Origin: an uncultured SAR86 cluster bacterium | GTDB lineage: Bacteria > Pseudomonadota > Gammaproteobacteria > Magnimaribacterales > Magnimaribacteraceae | NCBI GenBank assembly: GCA_902554355.1 | Contig: CACDOC010000004.1 | Span: forward strand, 16,071 to 80,070 | Length of the DNA stretch: 64,000 bases | Reading direction: 5' to 3' | Program-made: the position numbers and the translations under genes | Shown here: positions 28,238 to 35,577 of the stretch, in pieces | Position numbering within the stretch: position 1 is the stretch's first letter | Layout: every line of letters begins with the position of its first letter | Notes under the pieces: model-generated | The model's input: only the letters and a program-made list of their open reading frames with translations | Told to the model about the DNA's origin: nothing | Database searches by the model: none

Positions 28238-30286
28238 TTACAATGAATATTCCAAACCTACATAGGTTTCTCTAGGCAAACCAGGAAAATATCTATCTCC
28301 ACCAAAAGCATTAAAGTCAGCTCTTTCGGCATAATCTTTATCAGTAAGGTTATCTATTCTTAGATAGAATTTTAACTTCTCAGAGTAATTTAGATTTGAT
28401 CTGAAATGCATCAAAGTGTGCCCCTCATATTCATGTAGATTAGCCGCATCAGTAAAATAAGAGTCCATATGCTCCAATTCGAAGGCTAAAGAGACATCAT
28501 CGTTAATGGAGGTATTCAAGATTAAATTGGCCATTAGTTTAGGAGAAGTATCGATTTCGTTACCGATTCTAATTTTCTCTCTCATAGAAGTATCAGAGTC
28601 AAAATCATATTTGTGATCCCCGTAAGTGAAGTTACTGATTAGATTACTTGTTTCATTAATCTTTAAATCTAGAGTAAATTCAATTCCTTTATGATTTGTT
28701 TTTCCATTATCAATAATGAAATTTTCTGAATCTCTGAATATAGAGTTTCTTTTTTTACTTTTATAAATACTTAAGGATCCATTTAGATTATCCAGATTGA
28801 ACGCAGTACCCATCTCAACCATTGTTAACTTTTCAGAATCTAGATCACTCACATTTTGTTTCTTTTGTAATCTATAGGCTTCATTTATTTGAGGAGGCCT
28901 AAAACCTAAACTTGCTTGAAAGAAATAATTCACAAGGTCGAAGTAAGTTTCTATTCCTGCCCTAAAGCTCAATTCATTAAAATTATCTGATCTATCATCT
29001 GGTCTGTTGTAGTAACAACCACCAAAACCACAATTAGTTCCATCCTCTCTAGTATTGCCACTATTAATTCTATTGTTGTAATCGTATTTTATGGATTCTG
29101 TTCTTATATCAGCGAAAAATAATAGATCCCCACTTATATAAAGGTCATCTATGCCTACAAACGCTGCGTAAACCTTTGAATCAACTTCATAATCATAATG
29201 CTTTCCTTGGGGTCTAGTTGCATTGTTAAAAGCGGAGCTAGTGGTTAATGCATTGGCTTGAGTTTCAACTAATTCAGCATCAGCCATTTCAATCTGCAAT
29301 CCTCCTATAAGAGAGTAATGTTCAAAGTTAAGAAATCTTTTGAACAACACCCCAAAACTAACATGACTATTCTCTTCAACGGGAGTTCCTGGTAAAAAAT
29401 GTTGAAGAAATACCATGTCATTCTTTCTAATGAAAGGTGAGAGTAGGGATATGCCATTTTTTTTCTCTCTTTTTAAGTTTAAAGATATTCTTTGGGAATT
29501 AGCGTCTCTAAAAGCTTCAGGGTTAAGATTTTTTCTATTTAAGCTTGAATCTTTATATGAATTTAAACCAGTAATGTAACCAGCAGTTTCTTGATTCAAG
29601 TTAGTTAAAGTCATATTTAATGATGCTGTCCAAGAATTCAGCTGAAAATCAGATCTCATCTTTAGTTTTTGCTGATCGTATCCTGAAAATTCTCTGAAAC
29701 CATCATTAGAAGCACCAAAGATATTAAGACTCCAGTTAGATCGATTTCCTAGCTTCGCCTTAATATTTCTATACCCATTAGGACCCAGGTTTGTAGAGAT
29801 GTTATTTTCATCTTTTAGTGGCTTTGAAATCACGTTTATAACTCCATGCATTGCGTTAGCTCCGTACCTAGAACTAGCAGGACCTGTTATGGTTTCTATG
29901 CCCCCTGAATTCTCGAAAGCAGTTTCAAAAAGGCCATTTACATTACAAAAACCAGCAGGTCTAACTGGAATACCATCTTCTAAGATTAAAAATGAACCGC
30001 AAGCTCCTGGTCCAGTAAGCACTGGCGATCGCATGGCAGTTAAATGCTCCTGACCAGAACCTCTACTTATCCAAATTCCTGGTAGTCTTCTAAAAATTTG
30101 TTTGGGGTGTTGGGCATCTAATTTATTTAACTCAAAAGAGTCAATTGATGATAAGGATACACTTTCTGACCATCCACTCAGATTAGATATCTTTTTTTCT
30201 AAAACTATTATTTCATCTTCTTCTGCCTGTAAAGAAGAGGTAAAAAATAAGAGGCCTAAAATTATTAATTTAAAATTTGTCTGCAT
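28238..30286 (-). CDS. TonB-dependent receptor
   Basis: Plug domain (LPGIWISRG...GIPVRPAG...IETITGPASSRYGANAMHGVINVISK) and C-terminal beta-barrel ending GLPRETYVGLEYSL. Confidence 0.92.
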   Translation of the reverse strand: MQTNFKLIILGLLFFTSSLQAEEDEIIVLEKKISNLSGWSESVSLSSIDSFELNKLDAQHPKQIFRRLPGIWISRGSGQEHLTAMRSPVLTGPGACGSFLILEDGIPVRPAGFCNVNGLFETAFENSGGIETITGPASSRYGANAMHGVINVISKPLKDENNISTNLGPNGYRNIKAKLGNRSNWSLNIFGASNDGFREFSGYDQQKLKMRSDFQLNSWTASLNMTLTNLNQETAGYITGLNSYKDSSLNRKNLNPEAFRDANSQRISLNLKREKKNGISLLSPFIRKNDMVFLQHFLPGTPVEENSHVSFGVLFKRFLNFEHYSLIGGLQIEMADAELVETQANALTTSSAFNNATRPQGKHYDYEVDSKVYAAFVGIDDLYISGDLLFFADIRTESIKYDYNNRINSGNTREDGTNCGFGGCYYNRPDDRSDNFNELSFRAGIETYFDLVNYFFQASLGFRPPQINEAYRLQKKQNVSDLDSEKLTMVEMGTAFNLDNLNGSLSIYKSKKRNSIFRDSENFIIDNGKTNHKGIEFTLDLKINETSNLISNFTYGDHKYDFDSDTSMREKIRIGNEIDTSPKLMANLILNTSINDDVSLAFELEHMDSYFTDAANLHEYEGHTLMHFRSNLNYSEKLKFYLRIDNLTDKDYAERADFNAFGGDRYFPGLPRETYVGLEYSL

Positions 30287-30374: not shown

Positions 30375-33300
30375 TTAATTTTGATTCGCTTTTTTTCTAA
30401 AGTTTACAAAAGGTCTAGTAAGTAAATTAAGAAGTTTTCTTGGAAGCCTATTTACTGAATCACCAAGCACAAGGGCACAAGGAGTAACCACTAGCGTTAA
30501 TATAGTAGCCACGGTCAAACCAACCACCAATGACCCAGCCATTTGTTCCCAGAAACTTGTGATATAAGAACCGCTTTTAACAGTTCTTTCGATTAAGTCT
30601 ATACTGTAACCTAAAGCGATCGGCATTAATCCTGCAATGGTTGTGAAAGAAGTCAAGAATACAGGTCTAAGTCTCAATACAGCACTTCTTAAGGCCAGTG
30701 ATTTAGTATCTGATTCAGGATTATTTCTCTTAAGAAGGTTGAAGGTATCAATGAGTACAATATTGTTATTAACCACTATTCCTGCAAGCGCTACACAACA
30801 AATTCCTGTTTGAAGAGTGCTAAAAGATCTACCTAGAATTAAAAGAGATACAAACACACCCCCAAAAGATAAAAGGATTGCTGAAAGCACTATATTGGCT
30901 TGGTAAAAACTATTGAACTGTGTGACAAGAACTATCAACATTACAAATAACATAGTAATGAATCCCATTATGAGGAAGTCAGAAGATTCTTTATTGTATC
31001 TGTCGAAACCATCGAATTCTACGGTTATGCCTCTTCCTAGATCAGTGTTATTTAACCATCTTTTAATTTGTCTAATTTTTTCAGAAGCAACTACCCCTGG
31101 CATATTGTCTGCTGCTATTTGCTCTACTCGTTTACCATCTTTTCTACTTATTGTTTTAGTTGCAGGTTTAATGGTTGTGTTAACGAAGCTGCTAACAGGA
31201 ACTAGACCTCTTTGGGTTTGTATATTCAATTGTTCAAGCTGGTCTATGTTTCTTTCAGATTTAGGGAATCTAACTCTTATATCAACCTCTCTATCAAGAT
31301 TCAAAGGACGATACTCACCAACTTTGATTCCGTTTGTAACCATTTGAACAGCTGCTCCAACATCTGACAGTCCAGCTCCGTATTGTGCTGCTTTTGTCCT
31401 GTCTATATTTAACTCCCATTCTATTCCTCTAGTATCAGAACTATCTCTTATATCTGTTAGACCGGTTACTTCATTTTCTAAATAATTCCTTATCTTTTTT
31501 GTGGCCCTTTTTAGAGCTATTTCATCTTCACCTCTAATGTTTAGTTGAATAGCTTTTCCTATAGGAGGTCCACCCTTTTCGGCTTCTACACTAACAATAT
31601 AACCAGATACGTTACTTAAACGTTCTCTCATTAATTCTAATATTTCATATCCATTTCTATCGGAGACGGCATTGTCTTCAGCATAAAAGTCGACAAACAT
31701 TCCTCCTACCTTATCGGAATCATTTCCTCGAAAGCCACCACCTGAACCACCTGAATTACTCCAAGTACTCAACATTTCAATATCTTCCATGCCTATTATC
31801 TTTTGTTCAGCATCAATAGCTATGTCTCGAATTTCATCAACAGACAGATTTCCCCTAGCATATACATCTACATCAGCAAATTGAGGGGCAACTTCAGGAA
31901 AATAAATTATTCCTTTTCCGTGTTGTACCCATAAAGCAATAGACAAAATGATTGCTGACAAAATAATGAATATAGTCTGCCCCGGAGTGTTCAAATATTG
32001 ATTTACTTTTCGAGCATATTTTCCAGTCACGCCTGGAAGAGCAAGAGGGTCAGAAGATTCTAGTCTTCTAATGTTATTTATTTCTTCTTCTGACTGTTTA
32101 GCTAAACCACCAAACATGGCACCTAAAATTGGAGCAAACACTAGAGAGTAGAGGAGGGAGCCAACCAAAACACAAAAAACTGTTATGGGCATGTCCCTAA
32201 TGAATTTACCCATTCCGGGCATTAGCATTAAAGGCGTAAAAGCTATTAAGGTTGTCACTGTAGACGTTAATACGGGCCAGAACATTCTGGTGGCAGCAGC
32301 TGAATAGGCTTGCACTCTATCCATGCCCTCAGCTAATTTTCTATCAGCGTATTCTGTAATAACTATCGAACCATCAATAGTCATTCCCATTGAAATTAAC
32401 ATGCCAAACATGACCATGAAATTAAATTCTTTACCTAATATAAGTAGAACCAATAAGGCAAAAAGGTATGAGAAGGGAATAGCCATTCCAACCAGCATAG
32501 AAGTCCTAAAACCTAAAGCTGCTAGAACTACTATCATGACTAACGCAACTGAGGTTAAAACATTACCTTGTAATTCAGTAATCATCTGTAGAGCGAATTC
32601 AGAATCGTCTCTTACAAAATCTACTTCAACTCCTTCTGGAAAATCTTCAGAAAATTCAAGGACTAATTCTTTAACTTCTGCAACAGTATCTATGATATTT
32701 GTTCCTAGTCTTTTGGTTATGTCTATCGACAAAGATTGCTTGCCATTGATTCTCGAGTAACCGCCACGATCTTTATAAGTAAGGCTTACATTGGCTACAT
32801 CTTTTAGAGTTACAACGGAGTTTCCAGATACTTTTATTGGTAGCCTCTCTATATCCTCCAAGCTAGCAAAAACACTGGGTACGTTTACAGAGAATCTACC
32901 TTTTCCAGTGTCTTGTGATCCGGCGGGGATTACCCTATTGTTGTTAGCTACGGCTTGGTAGAGTTGATTCATAGAGATGCCGTAAGATTCAAGTTTATTT
33001 TTTTCGACAATTGCTTCTATCAAGTCTTCAGGAACCCCATTCAATTCAGCTGTTAAAACATTAGGATGAGTTTCAATAACATCCAACAGGTCTTGAGTTA
33101 AATTTACCAATACTCTTTGCGGAAGAACTTCACTAGAAATACTTACTGTTAGTATTGGATTATCAGCTGTGGAAAACTCTCTTATGCTAGGTTCCCTGGC
33201 ATCATCAGGGAGCAATCTTTTAGCTTCATCAACTTTTACACGTATGTCATAAAGAGCTTGATCCATATCAATATCTTGATCAAATTGAATCATAATTGCT

Positions 33301-33569
33301 GTGTATCCAGTTCTAGATGTAGATCTAATTGTATCGACCCCTTCTACTGTTCTTAAAGCATCTTCAAGAGGCTTGGCTAATAGTCTTTCCGAATCCTCAG
33401 GCGATACTCCTTCAAAACCAACACCAACATAAGCGCCAGGAAAATCTACATCGGGTTCTGTGGCTTTAGGTAAATAATTTAGCGCATAAAATCCAGATAA
33501 AGTGATTAGAATTAGAACACTTAATGAGGTCCTACTTTTCTTTATGGCTTGTAAGATAAGGGCCTTCAT
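30375..33569 (-). CDS. RND efflux transporter permease
   Basis: 1064 aa; ATEPDVDFPGAYVGVGFEGVSPEDSERLLAKPLEDALR, MGMTIDGSIVITEYADRK, repeated TM segments. Confidence 0.93.
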   Translation of the reverse strand: MKALILQAIKKSRTSLSVLILITLSGFYALNYLPKATEPDVDFPGAYVGVGFEGVSPEDSERLLAKPLEDALRTVEGVDTIRSTSRTGYTAIMIQFDQDIDMDQALYDIRVKVDEAKRLLPDDAREPSIREFSTADNPILTVSISSEVLPQRVLVNLTQDLLDVIETHPNVLTAELNGVPEDLIEAIVEKNKLESYGISMNQLYQAVANNNRVIPAGSQDTGKGRFSVNVPSVFASLEDIERLPIKVSGNSVVTLKDVANVSLTYKDRGGYSRINGKQSLSIDITKRLGTNIIDTVAEVKELVLEFSEDFPEGVEVDFVRDDSEFALQMITELQGNVLTSVALVMIVVLAALGFRTSMLVGMAIPFSYLFALLVLLILGKEFNFMVMFGMLISMGMTIDGSIVITEYADRKLAEGMDRVQAYSAAATRMFWPVLTSTVTTLIAFTPLMLMPGMGKFIRDMPITVFCVLVGSLLYSLVFAPILGAMFGGLAKQSEEEINNIRRLESSDPLALPGVTGKYARKVNQYLNTPGQTIFIILSAIILSIALWVQHGKGIIYFPEVAPQFADVDVYARGNLSVDEIRDIAIDAEQKIIGMEDIEMLSTWSNSGGSGGGFRGNDSDKVGGMFVDFYAEDNAVSDRNGYEILELMRERLSNVSGYIVSVEAEKGGPPIGKAIQLNIRGEDEIALKRATKKIRNYLENEVTGLTDIRDSSDTRGIEWELNIDRTKAAQYGAGLSDVGAAVQMVTNGIKVGEYRPLNLDREVDIRVRFPKSERNIDQLEQLNIQTQRGLVPVSSFVNTTIKPATKTISRKDGKRVEQIAADNMPGVVASEKIRQIKRWLNNTDLGRGITVEFDGFDRYNKESSDFLIMGFITMLFVMLIVLVTQFNSFYQANIVLSAILLSFGGVFVSLLILGRSFSTLQTGICCVALAGIVVNNNIVLIDTFNLLKRNNPESDTKSLALRSAVLRLRPVFLTSFTTIAGLMPIALGYSIDLIERTVKSGSYITSFWEQMAGSLVVGLTVATILTLVVTPCALVLGDSVNRLPRKLLNLLTRPFVNFRKKANQN

Positions 33570-34471
33570 GCCTCAGGGTAAGAAATTTCTTTAACGTTAA
33601 CTGTTTGACCTTGAAATACATACTCTTGACCAAGAGTGATGATTCTTTCGTTCTCATTTAAACCAGAAATCCAAAGACCATCCGTCGTGTCTTCAAGTAT
33701 CTCTATTTCTCTGAATTCAACAGAATTATTTTCATCGACAGTTCTTATACCTAATTTACCTTGATCGTTTAAAGAAAGGATAGCGGGCGAAATTTTATGG
33801 GAGAAAACTTTTTTACTTTCTATGAATATTTCTGCAGAAACACCATCTCTTATGGTTCTATCTTTATTATCAACTTTAATCTCTACTCTAAAAGTTCTTG
33901 TATTTCTATCCGCAGATGTGGCGATAAAAGAAACCTTACCTTGTATTTCATCTCCTGATATTAAACGTGCCATCGAATTTGCACCTACTTCTAAGTCAGC
34001 AATATCTTTTTCAGCAATATCCGCTACCAATAACATAGGGTTGGAATCTATTAGAGACGCGCAGGTTCCTCCTGTATTGAGATAATCTCCTTTATCCACA
34101 TTTAAAGATTCTAAATATCCTGAGAAAGGAGCAACTATTTTGGGGTAGGCCTCTCTTCCTGCTATGTATAACTGACATATAAGATCCCCTTCTTTTACGT
34201 AGTCACCTTGTTTGAATGGTGTAGATACAACCCTTCCACCTATTTCAGCTCTTACGTTTATGAATTTATCTGCTTCAGTAAAACCACTTGCTCTGATTGA
34301 CTTTGATTTTAGGATTGCTTGACTGTTTAATACAGTTACAGAAGAAAGGGTTGCTAAAGAGCTCTCACTTTTAGGACTAACTTCGTCATCTACAAGGCTG
34401 CCAGATACCATCCATATTGCTAGAAAAAATGCCGTTATTGCAGCGGTTTTATAGGTTTGTTTTATTTTCAT
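33566..34471 (-). CDS. RND efflux periplasmic adaptor (MFP) subunit
   Basis: AEIGGRVVSTPFKQGDYVKEGDLICQL, lipoyl/beta-barrel pattern, 4-nt ATGA overlap with the permease. Confidence 0.9.
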   Translation of the reverse strand: MKIKQTYKTAAITAFFLAIWMVSGSLVDDEVSPKSESSLATLSSVTVLNSQAILKSKSIRASGFTEADKFINVRAEIGGRVVSTPFKQGDYVKEGDLICQLYIAGREAYPKIVAPFSGYLESLNVDKGDYLNTGGTCASLIDSNPMLLVADIAEKDIADLEVGANSMARLISGDEIQGKVSFIATSADRNTRTFRVEIKVDNKDRTIRDGVSAEIFIESKKVFSHKISPAILSLNDQGKLGIRTVDENNSVEFREIEILEDTTDGLWISGLNENERIITLGQEYVFQGQTVNVKEISYPEA

Positions 34472-34486
34472 TAATTTTTTATTTAG

Positions 34487-34508
34487 GTGTTATACATGAC
34501 TATAACAC
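34487..34508 (-). promoter_or_regulatory. candidate operator dyad overlapping predicted RND operon promoter
   Basis: GTGTTATA-CATGAC-TATAACAC perfect 8-bp arms; - strand -10 TATAGT (34499-34504) and -35 TTAACA (34521-34526), 16-bp spacer. Confidence 0.6.
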
Positions 34509-34527
34509 TAAAATAGTATTTGTTAAA

Positions 34528-35577
34528 TTAAATTTGGTGTTTTTCTCTAAGTCTTTGCAGGTTCAGTTTTGTTTGCTCGCTAACTTTCTGATCCTTTTTT
34601 TTGTTTATTACGGGCTTACTAATATTCCAGCTAGACTCTATCCTTTTGTCCATTAGATTTTGGCCCTGTGAACTTAGATTTTGCTTCTGCTTCTGCCATT
34701 GAAACTTTACGTGTTGAAGAAATTTACTATTCCAAGAATTATGTGATTGACCTGTTTCTTTCCAATATAAAATAAACTCCGAGAGTGTTGAGTCAGCAAA
34801 CTCTTTTGGAATATTGGTGAGAGTTAACACATCATAAAAATCTTCATTAGGTAACCATTTAGAATCAATTTTAAATGGAAGGTCATCTTTTTCATTAACA
34901 TTTTGAAATCTTCCCCATTGTCTTCTTATATGAGCTATAAATTTAGAGTTCCATATGTCTGATTCTTCTTTCTTTTCGCTCCAGTACAACACAAATTCAG
35001 GTACTTCTTTATCTATAAAATCGTTATCCACTCCAGATCTTACAAGGATCTCGCGCGCTTCATCTTCTGGCTTCCAATTAGTCTCAATGGGCTGTCTTTT
35101 TCTCTTTTGATTATCTGTAGCTTCCTTTTGTCTCCATTGTTTTATAACGAAACGAAGAAATTTTATGCCCCAAGATTTATTTTTTTCTTCTTTTTCTTGG
35201 TTGAGGTGTTTGAAGTCTTCAACTTGAGCATACGTAAATTCTTCTGGTATCCCATACTCAAGTATTTGATCAAGAAGTTCTTTCTCAGGTCGCCATGAGT
35301 TTTCCATTGAACTTTCTCTTCTGCCAACAGTTTGAATTTCTTTAACAGAAAAACTAGACAAGGTTGATGTTTTATTTTCTACAACTAAACCTTTGCTTAG
35401 TAGGCTTTTCAGGTATTCCGTTAGTTCTTTTTCGGTCCAGAAAGAAAGTAGATTTTGTAATTCGTTCAGATTTCTGCCTTTCAGACCTGATTCTTTCAAT
35501 ACTTCTAACAAAACAGCTTCTGAGAGTCCTATGGTACTGGCTACATCTTTTGAAAAACTTATTCTTGAATCTGACAT
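34528..35577 (-). CDS. DnaT-like protein with N-terminal winged-helix-like region and three DnaT DNA-binding repeats
   Basis: Three copies of W[RK/L]P...F...YW...W..KF...V..QW; resembles the E. coli DnaT C-terminal domain (GWRPDPDFLRLAALWG...FIAYWQAEGK..). Confidence 0.75.
   Translation of the reverse strand: MSDSRISFSKDVASTIGLSEAVLLEVLKESGLKGRNLNELQNLLSFWTEKELTEYLKSLLSKGLVVENKTSTLSSFSVKEIQTVGRRESSMENSWRPEKELLDQILEYGIPEEFTYAQVEDFKHLNQEKEEKNKSWGIKFLRFVIKQWRQKEATDNQKRKRQPIETNWKPEDEAREILVRSGVDNDFIDKEVPEFVLYWSEKKEESDIWNSKFIAHIRRQWGRFQNVNEKDDLPFKIDSKWLPNEDFYDVLTLTNIPKEFADSTLSEFILYWKETGQSHNSWNSKFLQHVKFQWQKQKQNLSSQGQNLMDKRIESSWNISKPVINKKKDQKVSEQTKLNLQRLREKHQI

Follow-up and report, generated by a model that had tools for sequence, protein, structure and literature searches.

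A perfect dyad upstream of an RND efflux operon in a SAR86 bacterium is very probably the operator of a YtrA-subfamily GntR repressor which is encoded in trans, blocks the RND promoter and co-controls further efflux and envelope genes. The case is built from the site itself, its conservation, the set of promoters that carry it, the shared occurrence of site and ytrA across genomes and the recurrence of the site upstream of ytrA homologs in distant groups, all of them established by comparing sequences, mostly from incomplete genomes. RND pumps are usually viewed as being run by an adjacent repressor, and we know of almost nothing about the control of efflux in uncultured marine bacteria. What is predicted here is that a single short GntR regulator runs an RND pump, TolC and other envelope genes remotely, with the same operator recurring across several gammaproteobacterial orders. 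This specific prediction (a regulator, a 22-bp site and a list of targets) lends itself to testing in culturable relatives.

The window, i.e., the whole 64-kb stretch of DNA that was analysed, carries the operon on its minus strand. The first gene encodes the RND periplasmic adaptor, or membrane fusion protein (33566..34471; Pfam HlyD_D23/HlyD_3, with TIGR01730 RND_mfp above cut-off), and overlaps by 4 bases with the gene of the RND permease (30375..33569; Pfam ACR_tran, E=3e-149). A co-directional TonB-dependent receptor gene, recognised by Pfam, follows 88 bp after the permease (28238..30286) and is a possible member of the operon. The other neighbours assigned with Pfam are DAHP synthase and a DnaT-like gene. 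The latter, located upstream of the operon at 34528-35577, codes for a protein of 349 aa in which three stretches match the DnaT DNA-binding domain, and ends 2 bp past the -35, with the RND promoter fitted into a gap of 56 bp. The original prediction had stated that the window contains no TetR, MarR or LysR gene, and indeed a Pfam scan of 38 window proteins found none, nor does the operon have a pump-adjacent local repressor of these types.

Read directly, the dyad (34487..34508, no strand assigned) consists of two perfect 8-bp arms, GTGTTATA at 34487-34494 and TATAACAC at 34501-34508, around CATGAC at 34495-34500. Its frame is GTG-N16-CAC, with an additional G at 34486 on one side only, and it ends 15 bp upstream of the adaptor ATG (34471-34469). 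The dyad contains the minus-strand -10 (TATAGT, 34499..34504). This hexamer is preceded by TG and separated by a 16-nt spacer from the -35-like TTAACA (34521..34526). In orthologous promoters it reads TATAGT or TATACT in 29 of 29 cases, an invariance explained by its position inside the dyad. The promoter had been described as strong and sigma70-like. Its hexamers and spacer are as described (10 of 12 matches); the match by itself is not above chance, with 1.2 such sites in shuffles of this A+T-rich region, and TTAACA is weakly conserved, with TTTACA, TTGATA, TTTATA and poorer versions in relatives. A further claim, that the arms extend to TTTA(G)/TAAA around a bulged G, arose because the window site has its extra G on one side only; this extension is particular to the window site, and we rejected it as a general feature since relatives do not conserve it. 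At tolC and ABC sites, the arms stay symmetric further out with no bulged base (TAGGTGT...ACACCTA).

No other sequence in the window matches the dyad with up to three mismatches (0.4 matches expected), and the perfect 8+8 form has only one copy in its own genome, where a first scan detected four more near-copies with two mismatches each. A relaxed pattern, GTGTNNTA-N6-TANNACAC, in which inner positions were allowed to vary, was used for the family search. It matched five sites in the own genome (51% complete) and between 1 and 6 sites per genome in 35/35 genomes of the SAR86 family, while the reversed control gave 0. Among sister families of the same order it was present in 1/116 genomes, and this single, A-rich match is probably due to chance. 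In site sets derived from the pattern, the bases which it fixes are conserved by construction, a bias that the sets anchored on proteins (29 RND, 29 ytrA and 19 distant ytrA loci) largely avoid. When RND adaptor orthologs were found by protein search, all 29 with upstream sequence had the dyad, starting 31-37 bp ahead of the start codon; across these promoters, which come from 6 genera, all 16 arm bases are invariant and the six central bases vary. Nothing like the dyad occurs in the upstream regions of twenty adaptor homologs from sister family f2. A chance palindrome in A+T-rich intergenic DNA, where a promoter match of this quality would turn up about once by chance in a region of this kind, has virtually no probability left in the face of arms identical in every orthologous promoter around a variable centre and of the difference in motif occurrence between the family and its sisters.

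The dyad might also act as RNA, namely as a hairpin in the 5' leader serving as an attenuator or a stability element. Its predicted fold (-10.4 kcal/mol, z = -3.0) would fit, though any perfect palindrome would fold so. We consider this reading extremely unlikely: the -10 is inside the dyad and therefore the start point falls in it too, so that one arm would stay untranscribed, and the identical site is found at divergent gene pairs, which speaks against a leader hairpin. A terminator or attenuator was ruled out by the start point within the dyad and by the absence of a T-run after it.

The promoters bearing the dyad define a recurrent set of envelope functions. We read 80 sites with up to 5 kb of context in 21 genomes: 16 are at the RND adaptor, 20 at tolC, 15 at ytrA, 10 at tesA with divergent ybbA-ybbP, 8 at an MFS transporter with a divergent 200-aa winged-helix-like protein, and 3 at an ABC ATPase with a MacA-like adaptor. 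The remaining 8 lie outside these recurring places; one of them is an RND site cut by a contig end (L072) and another, in G004 contig C8 (L043), is probably due to chance. At RND, tolC, ybbA and winged-helix promoters, the -35-proximal arm has the gene-strand sequence GTGTTATA(G/C)T and supplies the -10; read from the side of a divergent gene, its counterpart is in most cases GTGTATTA or GTGTGTTA. Around the dyad at ytrA itself, a promoter TTGTAT-N17-TACACT can be drawn. In genus g4 (L073 2185, L077 2501, L081 2501), the dyad is located between a conserved membrane protein gene and a UmuD-like S24 peptidase gene, which is followed by a UmuC-like gene; these dyads would tie an SOS-type polymerase to the YtrA-dyad regulon.

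One of the dyad-bearing targets is itself a GntR protein. It is 114 aa long, with the Pfam GntR domain at residues 10-72 (E=1e-11), and the part following this N-terminal winged helix has only about 50 residues, as is characteristic of the YtrA subfamily. The nearest structure match is 3TQN, with further matches to YtrASa (6SBS) and to 2DU9/2EK5 of C. glutamicum. In the own genome the gene is outside the window (G000 contig C21, 17150-17491, minus strand). Downstream of it, every sufficiently long site locus has an ABC ATPase (Pfam ABC_tran) and a membrane protein, the operon organisation of this subfamily. In each of the 29 family ytrA genes, the dyad lies some 20-30 bp ahead of the start codon (with a CA-for-TA change in 3), so the regulator's own promoter carries a long palindromic operator, GTGT..TA-N6-TA..ACAC, as do distant homologs. 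The gene is present in 29/35 family genomes, among them all four with a completeness of 90% or more, and none of the 116 sister-family genomes has it. The six motif-bearing family genomes in which ytrA was not detected (63-89% complete) count against the assignment, but about seven absences are expected from the completeness values of the family genomes, and missing sequence is the likely cause. The predicted regulator is therefore a YtrA-type GntR protein rather than a member of the TetR, MarR or LysR families. It also agrees with the earlier proposal that the regulator acts from elsewhere, given that the dyad is strictly linked to a GntR/YtrA gene on another contig, and the proposed repressor-operator geometry gains similar support from the 29 RND orthologs and from the same site at other envelope genes. 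A Zur box has TGTTATA/TATAACA arms with a spacing of 1; this candidate was rejected as the dyad has similar arms but a spacing of 6, and the linkage to ytrA settles the matter.

The 200-aa protein (L033 2535-3137, own genome contig C3) deserves separate mention. It has no Pfam match at gathering score, is winged-helix-like by predicted secondary structure, is divergent from the MFS transporter and, within the order-wide sample, is confined to this SAR86 family. Its gene adjoins a dyad in a layout typical of autoregulated regulators, and a weak AlphaFold model, too poor to serve as a structure-search query, has an order of helices and strands compatible with a winged helix. One could thus suppose that this protein is the regulator and YtrA one of its targets. 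That is very unlikely: it is absent from the operator-bearing genera g2, g3 and g7, including genomes 93% and 96% complete, and therefore behaves as a target, and it occurs in no genome outside the family while the motif follows ytrA into other orders. Being under a YtrA-type dyad, it is possibly a second-tier regulator.

Another option is that YtrA acts on its own ABC promoter only, and that RND, tolC and the rest either answer to a second regulator with a look-alike site or are activated by YtrA. The sites do differ slightly, with mostly GTGTATTA arms and A/T flanks at ytrA versus GTGTTATA arms and a one-sided G at RND, which also counts against a single repressor. This difference is, however, accounted for by the -10 embedded at the target promoters. 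Moreover, RND, tolC and ytrA sites share one common frame and are all missing from the sister families, the RND and ytrA sites can be identical in distant genomes (G473, GTGTTATAGTTCACTACAACAC at both), and sites over the -10 disfavour activation. Taken together, we regard two regulators, or activation, as unlikely.

In the mechanism that we infer for YtrA as a common repressor, which involves physical binding, repression rather than activation and coordinate induction by a signal, a YtrA dimer would sit on the two half-sites, its pair of winged helices spaced by roughly two helical turns. At the window operon, it would cover the -10 hexamer together with the start point expected near 34492, and RNA polymerase would be blocked; the position of the dyad is compatible with this. 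More generally, a bound dimer would occlude the -10 or the spacer, amounting to repression by exclusion. An envelope or drug signal would then release YtrA and allow transcription of the RND adaptor-pump operon, together with tolC, ybbA-ybbP, the MFS/winged-helix pair and YtrA's own ABC transporter.

How does this compare with known systems? AcrR, MexR, NalC and MtrR are local RND repressors of the TetR or MarR family whose genes are usually beside the pump operon. They resemble the SAR86 case in that a repressor operator overlaps the RND adaptor-pump promoter, and differ from it in that the predicted SAR86 repressor is GntR/YtrA, unlinked, and common to tolC and ABC genes. The operator of B. 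subtilis YtrA reads AGTGTA-N13-TACACT, its spacing one base longer than in SAR86, and its regulon differs in having no RND pump or TolC; X. citri YtrA reportedly has three operons as direct targets, with neither an RND pump nor TolC among them. Like the predicted SAR86 repressor, B. subtilis YtrA (ytrGABCDEF) is a GntR protein of short length which shares its operon with ABC transporter genes and acts as a repressor on a long palindromic operator whose GT and AC lie well away from the centre (PMC4494728, PMC6746942); it is responsive to cell-wall antibiotics (PMC6746942). Xanthomonas YtrA, named HpaR1/YtrA in PMC7831014, belongs to the same subfamily and shares the operator frame GTG-N16-CAC, whereas the SAR86 targets are RND, tolC, ybbA-ybbP/tesA and others. 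The full X. citri motif, GGTG-N16-CACC as quoted in PMC6746942, is present at 41/78 SAR86 sites; in the window, one end of the site reads GGTG and the opposite end CACT. In Sulfolobus acidocaldarius, YtrASa is likewise a YtrA-type repressor with an operator over the start site, but its core motif is 14 bp and it has two targets, namely the operon to which it belongs and a gene for a membrane protein elsewhere (PMC6746942). What speaks against our interpretation is that members of the YtrA subfamily are described as mostly regulating one ABC operon each and rarely divergent ones (PMC4494728). No link between YtrA and RND or TolC was found in the literature covered, mostly from outside the subscription journals; the regulator and operator are of a kind already known, and the unusually broad efflux regulon appears to be new.

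The same association is found well beyond the family. In a sample of 369 genomes, 25 from other gammaproteobacterial orders had YtrA homologs. We examined the 20 closest, one of whose loci was cut by a contig end; in all 19 untruncated loci the best match to the SAR86 matrix upstream of ytrA beat all 30 shuffles, with a wide margin in 16 (e.g., GTGTTATAGTTAACTATAACAC in L196 or GTGTTATAGTTAACTACAACAC in L202). Across the class sample, 20/26 genomes with ytrA had the motif, as against 17/343 of those without it (p=5e-18, a guide only, as related genomes are not independent). Extra sites in the distant genomes precede RND/MacA-type adaptors, TolC or ABC ATPases in 12 of 19 cases, and in G473 the RND and ytrA sites are the same 22 bases. 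Control of RND and TolC by this YtrA group is therefore probably old rather than a SAR86 invention, separate recruitment being the less likely alternative. Going one step further, we lean slightly towards a YtrA-type repressor which, as an ancestral trait, coordinates envelope export throughout the class Gammaproteobacteria, and whose regulon the SAR86 family kept and widened. If so, a short GntR protein would switch on its own ABC exporter, an unlinked RND/MacA-type pump and the TolC channel together, and a streamlined SAR86 family would have retained this regulon while its sister families are without regulator and operators alike.

Two features of the distant loci are also worth recording. 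In several genomes (L252 3451-3948; L250 2074-2337), a gene for a short uncharacterised membrane or secreted protein lies between the dyad and ytrA, placing the operator 300-1000 bp from ytrA. In the distant family f16 (L240 3050-3463; L241 2493-2969; L242 2574-2969), an extra site is found near the start of a small, secreted-looking protein of 131-158 aa (no Pfam match in L240, the one scanned), whose gene is divergent from that of a large protease-like protein in two of the three genomes.
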